From positions 1 to 38,464 of the IMG/VR virus record IMGVR_UViG_3300042560_002307: a stretch of 38,464 bases of DNA. One strand, written 5' to 3'. How positions within the stretch are numbered: position 1 is the stretch's first letter; every line of letters starts with the position of its first letter. Below are positions 19,766 to 26,137 of the stretch, piece by piece. The notes under the pieces are model-generated. The model saw only the letters and a list, made by a program, of their open reading frames with translations. It did not search any database and was not told the origin of the DNA. The position numbers and the translations under genes are program-made. Source of the stretch: a virus.

Positions 19766-19816
19766 CCCCAAGAGCTTCCTCTCCCTTGAAATATAGGTGA
19801 AGAAGCTTGGGGTTTT
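19766..19816 (+). terminator. Hairpin terminator at end of tail module
   Basis: CCCCAAG with following CTTC (19766-19778) pairs with GAAGCTTGGGG (19802-19812): 11 base pairs interrupted by a 2-base bulge, with a 23-base loop, followed at once by TTTT and further T-rich sequence. It sits 6 bases after the stop of the last tail gene and overlaps the stop codon of the convergent gene on the other strand. The loop is long for an intrinsic terminator, which lowers certainty; the T-run is on the + strand only. Confidence 0.6.
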
Positions 19817-20807
19817 AGCTTTTAGCTTTTTCGTAGATCTTAAGAATAGCGTTCTTAATATGAGAACTAGCTCTAAGATTATCTTCAAAGCCTTTTCGGT
19901 CTGAAGAGGCTCTTCGCTCTTGACTAAAAAATGCGTGCATGACTTCAGGCATAGGTCCTGGTTCATTTCCAAGCATAGCTTCGAACAGGTCGTTTCGAAC
20001 TTCTACGCTTTCGTTTACTCGCTTCATAGGCAATTTGATCCACCAGCGATCACCGAAGACTTCTCTGTGAACCCACAGCATCTTCATCGTGATGTCTCTG
20101 ACATACCACAAACCATCTTTAGGATAAAGCGCAGGCCAAAAAGCCCAGTACCAACCGCCCATCAGTAGCCAATGAACCCAGAACGCCACCTTCATGGCAA
20201 AGCTCTGTTTGTAGGCGACAGCCAGCAAAGAGCTAGTTGTGTAGAACTGAGGTCCTGCAGCGGGTTGACCTAGCTTTAGAAACTCACTATCAGGGCACCA
20301 ATTAATACCAAAGTTGTTACATCGGTTAGATACGTCGCCATCGTTCACTTCATCCCACGATCTAGTCCCTAGATGCTTCAAGTAATTCCAAGCAGCTTTA
20401 ACAGCAGCTTCTTTAGGCTTCTGATCTTCCGGCATCTGCACATAAGCAAACGCCCAGCATCCAACGCAATCTCCAGAAACACGTTTTAAATTTTTGGAAC
20501 CATCAGCACCAATAGCCCTTAAGAAATTACCATCTTCATCTAGAAGCAACTCCATCCCACGCTTTCCTATAAACCCGTACTGAGTCAAGGCGCCATGGTC
20601 GTCATCGTTATCTAACAAAGCCCCATCAAGCCTTGTTGCTCTACCAACCTCGAAGTCAGGTTCCCAATGTACTGGACTAGATTTGTCAACTTTCTTAAAG
20701 ATGAATAGTCTCCAGTATGCCCAAAGCAAAGGGTATAAAACGTAAACAATGATTTGAAATGGCAAACCAACCAAGAGGAAGATAAGCCAGCGAGTAAGAG
20801 CGACCAT
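19815..20807 (-). CDS. Membrane protein of unknown function (330 aa)
   Basis: Runs opposite to the tail genes. AAAGGAGG lies 6 bases before the ATG on the minus strand, one of the best ribosome sites in the window. A hydrophobic N-terminal segment (LIFLLVGLPFQIIVYVLYPL, residues ~8-27) followed by WAYWRLFIFKK and a second hydrophobic segment around residues 205-228 (AFWVHWLLMGGWYWAFWPAL) predict two membrane spans. The middle is soluble, with GDCVGCWAF and NNFGINWCP cysteines and a GKRGMELLLDEDGNFLR segment. The C-terminal tail is charged. Downstream of, and likely co-transcribed with, the UvsW-like helicase. Not recognised; no lysis or transport motif is evident. Confidence 0.7.
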   Translation of the reverse strand: MVALTRWLIFLLVGLPFQIIVYVLYPLLWAYWRLFIFKKVDKSSPVHWEPDFEVGRATRLDGALLDNDDDHGALTQYGFIGKRGMELLLDEDGNFLRAIGADGSKNLKRVSGDCVGCWAFAYVQMPEDQKPKEAAVKAAWNYLKHLGTRSWDEVNDGDVSNRCNNFGINWCPDSEFLKLGQPAAGPQFYTTSSLLAVAYKQSFAMKVAFWVHWLLMGGWYWAFWPALYPKDGLWYVRDITMKMLWVHREVFGDRWWIKLPMKRVNESVEVRNDLFEAMLGNEPGPMPEVMHAFFSQERRASSDRKGFEDNLRASSHIKNAILKIYEKAKS

Positions 20808-22269: not shown

Positions 22270-22304
22270 GAGGATATTGTCTCACAGGTACGAGGAGGAA
22301 GCAA

Positions 22305-22529
22305 ATGTCAAATGATCCAATACGAGTTCGCTGCATGGAGTTTTTGCACTCTCAGCTAGAGAAAAAAGCTATTCCACATATCCGACCTGGAATGCTGGAA
22401 GATCTCATCGCTTTAGTTGAAGGTGTGCGTTCTGACCTAGCCGCTCAAGTTATGGCGCAGCGCATGGCCGAGCAAGCTCGCATGGCAGAGTTGGAAGAGA
22501 AAAACAAAACTGAGGTCTCCGATGAGTAA
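22305..22529 (+). CDS. Small helical protein overlapping the chaperonin gene (74 aa)
   Basis: A very strong GAGGAGGAAG lies before the ATG, and the stop overlaps the chaperonin start by 8 bases, so the two are almost certainly co-translated. The sequence is charged and helical (RVRCMEFLHSQLEKKAIPHI; GMLEDLIALVEGVRSDLAAQ; RMAEQARMAELEEKNK). It lies where GroES would sit in a bacterial groESL operon, but it is shorter (GroES is about 95 aa), predicted helical rather than beta barrel, and has no recognisable mobile loop. Function unknown; a chaperonin partner is possible from position only. Confidence 0.7.
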   Translation: MSNDPIRVRCMEFLHSQLEKKAIPHIRPGMLEDLIALVEGVRSDLAAQVMAQRMAEQARMAELEEKNKTEVSDE

Positions 22530-24183
22530 ATTAATTCTTGACTCTCAGAGCACCAAACAAAAAGCTCTGGAAACTATTTCTGAGATGGCAGCGGTCGTTA
22601 AAAAAACACTAGGCCCTGGCGGAAACCCTATCATCCTACAACGCCAAGGACAAAACCCAGACGGCACTCAGATTGGGCCTTTGATTACTAAAGACGGCGT
22701 CTCCGTTGCAGAGCACGTAGCTTACCGCAACAACACCAAGGACACGATTGCCAAAGCTATTCTTCAGGTAGCAAAGAACACCGTCAACCAAGCAGGCGAT
22801 GGCACCACCACAGCAGTCGTACTTGCAGAAGCTATCTATCGAGCTGGCTACAAATACATCGAACAAGGTCGTAACTCTATCCAGCTTTACGAAGAGCTAA
22901 ACCGAGCAAAGAATCAAGTAGTAGACGCTATTAATAAAGTTAAGAAAGATATCTCAGAGGAAGAAGTTAAGAGTGTAGCTCAGATCTCGGCTAACGGAGA
23001 CGAAGAGATTGCTAACATCGTATACGAAGCTATCATGGCTGTGGGAGAAGACGGCCACATTGCTCTTGAAGAAGGTTCTTCTCGAGAGACTGAACTTAGC
23101 AAGATTGAAGGCGCTGTTTACAAACAAGGCTGGACTTCATTTGGACCGCATGGTTCTTTGTTGGTAACAGATAAGACTCGGGATATCTGCGAGATGCGAG
23201 ATCCGGCTGTTCTTTTGTACGCTGGTACCTTAGACGACGTACACTCGTTGGGCAGCTTGATTCAAAAAGTTTATCAACTAGATCCCCAAACCAAGCAGCT
23301 TGCTAACGTCGTACCCTTTTTGATTATTGCAAACGAATTTTCAGATCAGGTAAAAGAGTTTATCCTGCAAAACCGTATGCAAGGTGGCTATCCTATCGCC
23401 GCTATCAAAGCGCCTTTCGACGGTTCTCCTAATGCTCGCACCGAGATGCTTGAAGATCTAGCTGCGCTTCTAGGCGCTAAAGTATCCGCTAAAGGCATCT
23501 TAGACTTGAAGCAAGTTACGGAAGAGCATCTAGGCTCGTGTGCGAAAGTAGAAATCTCTCGTAACGAGATGGTCGTATTTGAAGGCTCCGGTGATGAGGA
23601 GCAAATCATTCAACGAGTAGAAGATCTTAAAAAACTATCAGAATCTAAGCTTCATGAGTTTGATCGTGAGAATGTTCGCATTCGCATCGGAAAGCTAACC
23701 GGCGGAATTGCTATCGTTCGAGTGGGCGGTAACTCAGAGCTAGAGATTCTAGAGAAAAAGGATCGTATCGAAGATGCTCTATGTGCCGCTCGGGTAGCTA
23801 TTCAAGACGGCATCGTAGCAGGTGGAGGATATACACTCTACCAAATCAGTCAACAATTATTTTCTGAGAAGGCTGATGAGGCTTCGGTGATCATGGCTGA
23901 AGCTTTGCAAGCTCCTATTAAACAGATCATCTCTAACGTAGGGGAAAACCCAGACGTGGTTTTAGCTAGAATGCCTAGTCGAAAAGGCTATGACGCTAGG
24001 AACAAGCGGTATGTAGATCTTATGAAAGAAGGCATCATTGATCCGGCTAAGGTGACGAAATCTGCGCTCGAGAATGCGGTCTCTATTGCAGGCTTGCTAC
24101 TTACTACTGGCGGGGCTATCGTTATAGATGACACCCCAGTACCTGGAGTGACTAATCCTTTACACGCACTACTAGGCGGATAA
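22522..24183 (+). CDS. groEL: Phage GroEL-like chaperonin
   Basis: 553 aa, co-linear with bacterial group I chaperonin (548 aa in E. coli). Visible landmarks: TLGPGGN (29-35), ITKDGVSV (55-62, Asp58 matching the ATP-site Asp52), AGDGTTTA (91-98, Asp93 matching Asp87), VEGMQ-like EGAVYKQG in the apical part (~196-204), IKAPFDG (~295-301), EDALCAARVAIQDGIVAGGG (417-436, Asp418 matching the catalytic Asp398) and ILDPTKVT-like IIDPAKVTKSAL (505-516). ATPase residues are intact, so it should be active. Differences: an ~8-residue insert in the equatorial stem loop (after residue 40), a rewritten apical helix H region with an insert near 253-264, and no Gly-Gly-Met tail. It folds proteins in a double ring; phage targets are unknown. 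Phage chaperonins of the EL/OBP type are reported to work without a co-chaperonin. Confidence 0.95.
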   Translation: MSKLILDSQSTKQKALETISEMAAVVKKTLGPGGNPIILQRQGQNPDGTQIGPLITKDGVSVAEHVAYRNNTKDTIAKAILQVAKNTVNQAGDGTTTAVVLAEAIYRAGYKYIEQGRNSIQLYEELNRAKNQVVDAINKVKKDISEEEVKSVAQISANGDEEIANIVYEAIMAVGEDGHIALEEGSSRETELSKIEGAVYKQGWTSFGPHGSLLVTDKTRDICEMRDPAVLLYAGTLDDVHSLGSLIQKVYQLDPQTKQLANVVPFLIIANEFSDQVKEFILQNRMQGGYPIAAIKAPFDGSPNARTEMLEDLAALLGAKVSAKGILDLKQVTEEHLGSCAKVEISRNEMVVFEGSGDEEQIIQRVEDLKKLSESKLHEFDRENVRIRIGKLTGGIAIVRVGGNSELEILEKKDRIEDALCAARVAIQDGIVAGGGYTLYQISQQLFSEKADEASVIMAEALQAPIKQIISNVGENPDVVLARMPSRKGYDARNKRYVDLMKEGIIDPAKVTKSALENAVSIAGLLLTTGGAIVIDDTPVPGVTNPLHALLGG

Positions 24184-25335
24184 ATGGCTAAGAAAAAATG
24201 GAACCCCGATGCAGTTTGGCTTTCTTACTCAGGAGCAAGTACTTTTAAGTCTTGCCCTGAGAAGTACTATCTTCAAAAGGACTGGAAGGCTAAGGGAAAC
24301 TTTAGCTACTTTGTTTTTGGGTCCGCTGTAGAGTCAGGGGTTACAGAGGCCTTTATTAGCCGAAAGCGGGATAAGATGCTTGCCGCTTTTGAAAAGAACT
24401 GGGCTTGCGAGAACGCTGGCAGCACGGCGACTGACGAATGGAAAAAAGAAAAGCCCATCTTTGACAACGTGGACATTGAGTACTCGGCAGGAGACGTTGA
24501 TTTAGACTTGTTAGAAGGCGAGGATGTGCGCCTTGACCAATGGGTTACAGAGTTATACAAAGATGTCGAGCTTACATGGAAGCCTCAGATCTTTGCTATC
24601 TTTGACAAGATAAAAAATAAGGTGGGTCTGACTTCTACGGAAGACCGTTTTTATAAACGAGTGGCTTGGCTTTCTATGAAGAAAAAGGGCGAGTATATGC
24701 TCAACTCCTTTTTTGAGCAAGCTTTGCCTAAGATAAAAGGCTTGGTAGAAATTGAAGGTAAGCCTGCGGCTCAGATGCGAATTGATATTCCTTCTGACGA
24801 CGGCGACAACATCGTAGGCTACGTAGACTACGTCGTAGAGATGGTAGACGGTCGCATTGTAATTTTAGATTGCAAAACGGCAGCTTCTCCCTACGATGAG
24901 CACGCTCTGCTTACTTCGGAACAGTTGAAAACTTATGCTGCAGCTTTAGCTAGCAAACTTGAATCTGATCCCGAGATTGGCTATCTTGTTTTAGTAAAAA
25001 AGCTAGTTATCGAAAAGAGCTGCTCTTCTTGCGGACACGTCAGAGAGAACTCAAAGCTTAAGAACTGTACTTCTTGTGAAGGCGGCAAGTACGATAAAGG
25101 TACTTATTCTGCTGAAGTTCAAATGATGACCAGGCAGATTAAAGATGAAGAGATGGATGATCAACTCGATGATTACTCTCACATCGCAGACGCAATACGC
25201 AATAAAGTTAGGTTTAAAAATCCATCAAACTGTTTTAGCTTTGGACGTAAATGCGAATTTTACGATCACTGCCATAAAGGAAAATCACTAAATAAACTTC
25301 CAAACTTGGAAAAGAAAGAAAAAGGAGGCCGCTAA
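24184..25335 (+). CDS. PD-(D/E)XK nuclease with Fe-S cluster (Cas4/AddB-like)
   Basis: 383 aa, starting right after the chaperonin stop. The nuclease core is clear: YVDYVVEMVDGRIVILDCKT (214-232) provides the Asp and the DxK (Asp215, Asp229, Lys231), followed by EQLKTYAAAL (246-255) with the QxxxY motif. A single N-terminal cysteine (Cys24 in TFKSCPEKYYL) and three at the C-terminus (Cys350, Cys357, Cys363 in NCFSFGRKCEFYDHC) form the four-cysteine 4Fe-4S pattern of AddB and Cas4 nucleases. A second CxxC...CxxC zinc-ribbon-like pair (280-298) is inserted between them, which is unusual. The usual GxxxH position reads GSAVE. Likely processes DNA ends for recombination or packaging intermediates; no CRISPR context. 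Stop overlaps the next ATG. Confidence 0.85.
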   Translation: MAKKKWNPDAVWLSYSGASTFKSCPEKYYLQKDWKAKGNFSYFVFGSAVESGVTEAFISRKRDKMLAAFEKNWACENAGSTATDEWKKEKPIFDNVDIEYSAGDVDLDLLEGEDVRLDQWVTELYKDVELTWKPQIFAIFDKIKNKVGLTSTEDRFYKRVAWLSMKKKGEYMLNSFFEQALPKIKGLVEIEGKPAAQMRIDIPSDDGDNIVGYVDYVVEMVDGRIVILDCKTAASPYDEHALLTSEQLKTYAAALASKLESDPEIGYLVLVKKLVIEKSCSSCGHVRENSKLKNCTSCEGGKYDKGTYSAEVQMMTRQIKDEEMDDQLDDYSHIADAIRNKVRFKNPSNCFSFGRKCEFYDHCHKGKSLNKLPNLEKKEKGGR

Positions 25336-25858: not shown

Positions 25859-26137
25859 GTGAATCAGCGAATCTTTATACGCTACCCTAATCGAAAACTG
25901 TATGATGCGGCTAACTCTTGCTATGTTTCCGCAGCAGCAGTTTTAGATATGATCAGAGGCGGCGTTGATGTAAAGATAGTTGATAAAGCTAATATGGTTG
26001 ATGTTACTGGGGCTGTTTTAATAAAAGCAGTTGTTGACGAAAACATTTCACAGTTCTATACTGATGAAAGTGTACACCTTCTCATGAAGATTATTCGTGA
26101 AGGTGGTTTTGCAGAATATAGTAAAAAACTTCTATAG
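25859..26137 (+). CDS. Stand-alone PhaR-type (PHA/PHB regulator) DNA-binding domain protein
   Basis: 92 aa beginning at GTG (25859), with GGAG at 25849-25852. Residues 4-~65 match the PHB/PHA accumulation regulator DNA-binding domain closely in pattern: RIFIRYPNRKLYDAANSCYVS, then AVLDMIRGGVDVKIVDK and DVTGAVLIKAVVDE, the signature order of PhaR (R..KYPNRRLYDT..S.Y). In bacteria PhaR represses polyhydroxyalkanoate granule genes and has a further C-terminal region, absent here. No PHA gene is nearby. Sandwiched 2 bases after the annealing protein and 8 before the next gene, in the replication operon. It may act on phage or host promoters; target unknown. Confidence 0.8.
   Translation: MNQRIFIRYPNRKLYDAANSCYVSAAAVLDMIRGGVDVKIVDKANMVDVTGAVLIKAVVDENISQFYTDESVHLLMKIIREGGFAEYSKKLL

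Follow-up and report, generated by a model that had tools for sequence, protein, structure and literature searches.

A phage GroEL without a detectable Cpn10 and the small helical protein encoded before it, a putative accessory

Introduction

Does a phage GroEL that is preceded by a gene for a small helical protein, and accompanied by no GroES, act alone or with that protein as its partner? The question is raised by a 38,464-base viral record, itself a fragment, the whole of which is referred to here as the window. Phage chaperonins that work without GroES are already known. These include EL (gp146) and OBP (gp246) from Pseudomonas phages and AR9 (gp228) from a Bacillus phage, all of which are reported to be co-chaperonin-independent (PMC7185714, PMC9598537, PMC5934643), and the locus described here is a variant of that theme. 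E. coli GroES had no effect on the ATPase activity, protease protection or refolding associated with the EL chaperonin, and the authors of that study, who observed no GroES interaction, left an unrelated co-factor possible (PMC7185714). A sequence-only reading of the window had proposed that its chaperonin may work either without a co-chaperonin or with the neighbouring small protein as a new type of cofactor or substrate adaptor.

Locus and genomic setting

The elements of the locus, in window coordinates, are the following.

22293..22298, + strand: AGGAGG ribosome-binding site of the small gene (anti-SD pairing -11.8)
22305..22529, + strand: small gene encoding a 74-aa protein, predicted helical, acidic (pI 5.1), of an undescribed family
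22512..22516, + strand: GAGGT ribosome-binding site of groEL, located within the small gene (sequence)
22522..24183, + strand: phage chaperonin (groEL), 553 aa, a group-I-type Cpn60
24184..25335, + strand: PD-(D/E)XK (RecB/Cas4-like) exonuclease, the next gene after groEL (Pfam; syntenic in relatives)

The small gene and groEL share the 8 bases 22522-22529, as the sequence-only reading had described, and its placement of the ribosome-binding site among the best in the window also held: the AGGAGG of the small gene is the top Shine-Dalgarno site among the 33 window genes scored, with the GAGGT site of groEL ranking 11th. In the window, a consensus scan ahead of the small gene returned no sigma-70 promoter. 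The tailed-phage origin of the window is indicated by PHROG matches that include a baseplate protein, a DNA polymerase, a UvsX-like recombinase and helicases. A close relative (G002) additionally encodes a tail sheath, portal, terminase and SPO1-like major head protein, and the phage clade is of the myovirus type. All genomes of this clade, which comprises the window and loci L001, L002, L003, L084 and L141, are metagenomic.

To the left of the small gene lies a divergently oriented helicase gene. To the right of groEL follow, in order, the exonuclease, a 173-aa acidic-tailed protein, a PhaR-like 92-aa protein and a 199-aa protein, and then a primase-helicase, the DNA polymerase and a second exonuclease, an arrangement that places the chaperonin at the head of a replication block. 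With the exonuclease gene directly adjoining groEL, no Cpn10 is found at the downstream position in the window.

Two further proteins of this neighbourhood are recorded here. The 92-aa protein (25859-26137) carries the DNA-binding domain of PhaR-type regulators of PHB/PHA accumulation (Pfam PHB_acc_N, 3.6e-15) and has orthologues in G001, G002 and G003, and an ORF of similar appearance is present in the distant relative L159 (1918-2157). On the - strand, positions 19815-20807 encode a 330-aa protein with hydrophobic stretches, which is adjacent to the helicase in L001 as well and to which neither Pfam nor PHROG gives a match.

The chaperonin: nucleotide site, inserts and docking surface

The large ORF matches Pfam Cpn60_TCP1 (E 9.7e-56) and the PHROG groEL family (2e-115), and is 33% identical to E. 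coli GroEL. Prediction of its structure alone, one of the checks that the sequence-only reading had suggested, returned an AlphaFold (AF2) model with a chaperonin fold (mean pLDDT 88.6), for which the best PDB matches by Foldseek are GroEL/Hsp60 structures (GroEL, E about 1e-47). All 15 of the ATP-site positions compared are identical to those of E. coli GroEL, including GPxG, D52, DGTTT and D398, and the Asp residues at the E. coli D52, D87 and D398 positions are kept in all six clade members. The earlier description of an ATPase-competent chaperonin with every key Asp in place is thus upheld at the level of predicted function, the nucleotide site being intact by alignment.

The same description had noted an equatorial insert, a rewritten apical region and the lack of a GGM tail, and alignment bears out each of these. 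The insertions lie at the following positions.

22654..22674, + strand: 7-aa equatorial stem-loop insert, chaperonin residues 45-51 (alignment)
23140..23154, + strand: 5-aa apical insert, residues 207-211, in the segment of GroEL that holds Y199, Y203 and F204 (alignment)
23287..23313, + strand: 9-aa apical insert after helix H, residues 256-264 (alignment)

The equatorial insert is present in 6/6 clade members and absent from E. coli GroEL, that of Bacteroides phage SJC03 and the other GroELs compared. The 9-aa insert forms a low-confidence block of the model (pLDDT 67), and a further two residues after helix I are likewise particular to the clade in comparison with the GroELs of E. coli and of a broad range of phages. 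At five and nine residues, the apical inserts look too short to form a lid of their own as in group II chaperonins. In place of the GGM tail, the clade chaperonins have a conserved C-terminus, NPLxxxxG. In a chaperonin tree that does not include EL, the stem leading to the clade is long, at 1.46 changes per site.

Eight classical positions of GroES and substrate docking were scored (Y199, Y203, F204, L234, L237, L259, V263 and V264); E. coli GroEL has YYFLLLVV there and the window chaperonin WLLGIKLQ. Among the five clade members scored, only 0-1 of the eight are identical and 4-6 are still hydrophobic, and Lys replaces L259 in all six members of the clade. By comparison, 5-8 of the eight are retained in nine phage GroELs encoded next to an upstream Cpn10. 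The loss of docking identity follows overall divergence in part, as the remainder of the apical domain is also less conserved in the clade than in the Cpn10-adjacent GroELs (identity 0.32 vs 0.54). Moreover, in a marine phage lineage that has the docking residues LHFQLKLM, Lys at 259 among them, the gene right after groEL encodes a Cpn10. Thus, changed docking residues are no proof of Cpn10 independence, and their use as such was abandoned.

This surface bears on the possibility that the phage chaperonin takes the GroES of its host as lid, the small protein being unrelated or modulating that interaction. Bacteria nearly always have GroES, and both the group I fold, with its 33% identity to E. 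coli GroEL, and the compatibility of altered docks with a Cpn10 in the marine lineage lend the idea some credit. However, the near-complete replacement of the docking residues, with Lys at L259 throughout the clade, stands against the conservation seen in the nine GroELs with an upstream Cpn10, and the marine lineages with changed docks bring a Cpn10 of their own. Recruitment of host GroES is regarded as unlikely.

Search for a phage-encoded Cpn10

The sequence-only reading had stated that there is no GroES, and had named a GroES elsewhere in the same genome as a finding that would count against it. Since the window is a 38-kb fragment, the search was extended to relatives of 111-118 kb, namely G002 (118 kb), G003 (111 kb), G007 (116 kb) and G020 (113 kb, the contig of L141), together with G001. 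G002, G003 and G007 share a common gene order and content but are circularly permuted, and the ends of each map inside the other contigs, so these three are near-complete. Pfam Cpn10 gave no match at E<=10 in the window, G001, G002, G003 or G007, and none at E<=0.001 in G020, which was checked by Pfam only. A custom profile, for which 20 diverse Cpn10s served as input (among them marine ones, gp31 and pv27), reached a best E of only 2.8 on the family contigs. As a control, T4 gp31 was still detected when left out of training, with E 0.0024, and E for other divergent phage Cpn10s was about 1e-5 or lower. Profile-profile comparison of the conserved gene groups with Cpn10 gave probabilities below 2%, as against 50-98% for left-out controls. 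For scale, a Cpn10 is nearby at 64 of 91 phage groEL loci (53 downstream, 11 upstream), and 14 of the 18 whole phage records tested contain one.

A Cpn10 too divergent for sequence profiles could still be encoded elsewhere in the clade genomes, and an ORF next to groEL in L075, Cpn10-like by eye, did escape the first profile when left out. The improved profile nonetheless recovers the left-out proteins of gp31, pv27, L138, L139 and L081, which makes a hidden homologue of this kind highly improbable. Judged by these profile searches, the clade has no detectable phage Cpn10, and it is probable that its chaperonin uses none of phage origin.

The small protein

The 74-aa ORF is, by its pattern of substitution, a real coding sequence: comparison with L001 gives an in-frame pN/pS of 0.22 and zero stops, whereas the two other frames give 0.75 and 2.03 with 7 stops each, and homologues occur in five related contigs. 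The helical character claimed for the product is reproduced by its AlphaFold model (mean pLDDT 83), which predicts a helix of 15 residues (5-19), a loop and a helix of 44 residues (30-73).

22362..22391, + strand: best-conserved segment of the small protein, the loop of residues 20-29 (KKAIPHIRPG) that joins the two predicted helices

Mean pairwise identity reaches 0.55 in this loop and 0.22-0.50 elsewhere in the protein. The conservation peak thus falls at the end of helix 1 and the loop after it, with isoleucine 26 and glycine 29 invariant. Overall, identity to the protein of the window is 29-72% in a five-sequence alignment, and the five proteins scored have pI values of 4.8-6.1 (below 5.5 in four, 6.1 in the fifth). 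As the small proteins of L002 and L003 are 34-40% identical and their chaperonins 61-77%, the small protein evidently evolves the faster of the two, a point against the accessory role proposed below.

Nothing significant was found for the small protein in Pfam, PHROG or PDB sequences, and Foldseek finds nothing similar to its model in PDB or BFVD. Homologues beyond the clade are absent from viral_contigs and the phage collection, and a scan of genome_contigs with the chaperonin alignment produced no finds. It is also not a GroES/Cpn10, as there is no Pfam match, a profile-profile probability of 0.07% and an all-helical AF2 model in place of the β-barrel with mobile loop that constitutes the Cpn10 fold. 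The small protein therefore represents a new, undescribed family, and is the interesting part of the locus.

Linkage of the small gene to groEL

A homologue of the small gene (67-77 aa) directly precedes groEL in 6/6 clade members, which runs counter to the other finding that the sequence-only reading had named against itself, absence of the small gene beside groEL in relatives. The overlap between the two genes is 20 bases in L001, 4 in L003, 8 in L084 and 17 in L141, and a 9-base gap separates them in L002. The helicase gene that adjoins the small gene is interrupted in L003 (3241-5716, - strand) by an insertion resembling an intein (Pfam Intein_splicing 9e-9, Hint 1e-4). Conversely, the small gene is absent from all 17 of the other phage records examined as whole records, among which are chaperonin-less relatives and carriers of a Cpn10-Cpn60 pair.

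The DNA polymerase served as an independent marker, for which 24 related loci were collected. In the resulting tree, the six lineages with small gene and GroEL, the window included, form one clade with support of 100/100. Its nearest relatives (L145, L146, L148 and L163) have neither gene, as is true of most others, and L149 and L156 have a GroEL with Cpn10, acquired separately, and no small gene. This distribution fits a joint gain of the small gene and groEL, but is suggestive only. The clade represents a single evolutionary event, so co-occurrence carries little statistical weight. Likewise, the synteny seen in relatives extends equally to the helicase, exonuclease, primase-helicase and polymerase genes nearby, and adjacency of the small gene to groEL is accordingly weak evidence on its own.

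These reservations give room to a second account, in which the chaperonin works alone in the manner of EL, OBP and AR9 (PMC7185714, PMC9598537, PMC5934643) and the small protein, an early phage product with no link to it such as a regulator or host-takeover factor, heads the block by chance. The small gene is the first after the divergent helicase gene, where small early genes are typically found, synteny covers the block as a whole, and the weak, non-significant profile matches of the small protein are to phage DNA-binding and regulator families (E 0.024-0.1). An unrelated neighbour is harder to reconcile with the chaperonin-less polymerase relatives, in which the small gene occurs in 0/11 whole records, and the acidity of the protein does not suggest a DNA-binding role. 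A lone chaperonin beside an unrelated gene is plausible, if on the doubtful side.

Proposed mode of action and comparison with known systems

The preferred reading is that of a Cpn10-free chaperonin cycle with the small protein as a dedicated accessory, to which a probability of roughly 0.4 is assigned. The ATP-driven, group-I-type chaperonin of the clade would do without its own partner of the Cpn10 fold, and would bind and release phage client proteins through an open-ring or lid-independent cycle resembling that proposed for EL (PMC7185714). Early replication proteins are plausible clients, given that the chaperonin is encoded at the start of the replication block. The small protein would dock on the chaperonin through its conserved loop and helix 1 and act as its regulator, as a substrate adaptor or as a lid of a non-canonical kind; that it acts with the chaperonin at all is proposed tentatively from its sequence and gene linkage. 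A stronger version, in which the helical protein is a non-Cpn10 co-chaperonin, that is, a coiled-coil cofactor or lid that replaces GroES and has co-evolved with the rewritten apical surface and equatorial insert, is considered rather unlikely. The interpretation offered by the sequence-only reading is thus sustained in part: the lack of a phage Cpn10, the constant presence of the small gene and the changed docks speak for it, adjacency is weak alone and the docks are not decisive, and the partner role is putative. The clade supplies a specific small neighbouring candidate in six natural variants and so permits a simple biochemical test. If the proposal is true, this would be, to our knowledge, the first non-Cpn10-fold partner of a group-I-type ring.

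The clade resembles EL, OBP and AR9 in having a phage GroEL-like protein with a conserved nucleotide pocket and an altered apical domain (PMC7185714, PMC9598537, PMC5934643), encoded in a phage genome without detectable Cpn10 (for the clade, three near-complete relatives, and the contig of L141 by Pfam). EL is far more distant, however, as the clade profile gives 124 bits to it (6tmt) and 350-410 to bacterial GroELs, and its description includes no dedicated small partner (PMC7185714). Flavobacterium phage immuto 3-5A and Bacteroides phage SJC03 likewise place a small ORF 2-13 bases before groEL, arranged as for a single transcript, but theirs encodes a true Cpn10, and their chaperonins, about 35% identical to those of the clade, keep 7-8 of the eight docking residues. 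T4 gp31, an analogue of Cpn10, has a mobile loop and works with the host GroEL. A similar role is conceivable for a small phage protein, although that of the clade has a predicted fold made of helices only and fails to match the profile of Cpn10.

Other phage groEL loci

Virioplankton chaperonins are reportedly the subject of a paper by Marine and co-workers, in which members of the clade may already be included. At L034 and about 35 marine-type loci, groEL is preceded by a conserved ORF of 94-100 aa (MTYLYYKTS...) and immediately followed by a Cpn10 of 85-102 aa, the groEL-groES order being the reverse of that in the bacterial operon. The upstream ORF had been entertained as a second GroES replacement, and was dropped in view of this downstream Cpn10. 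Finally, L060 (4774-7368) and L061 encode a phage GroEL of 865 aa, in which some 320 additional residues lie close to the ATP-binding region. The ORF also gives a weak homing-endonuclease match (E 0.0025), and probably has an intein inside the chaperonin.
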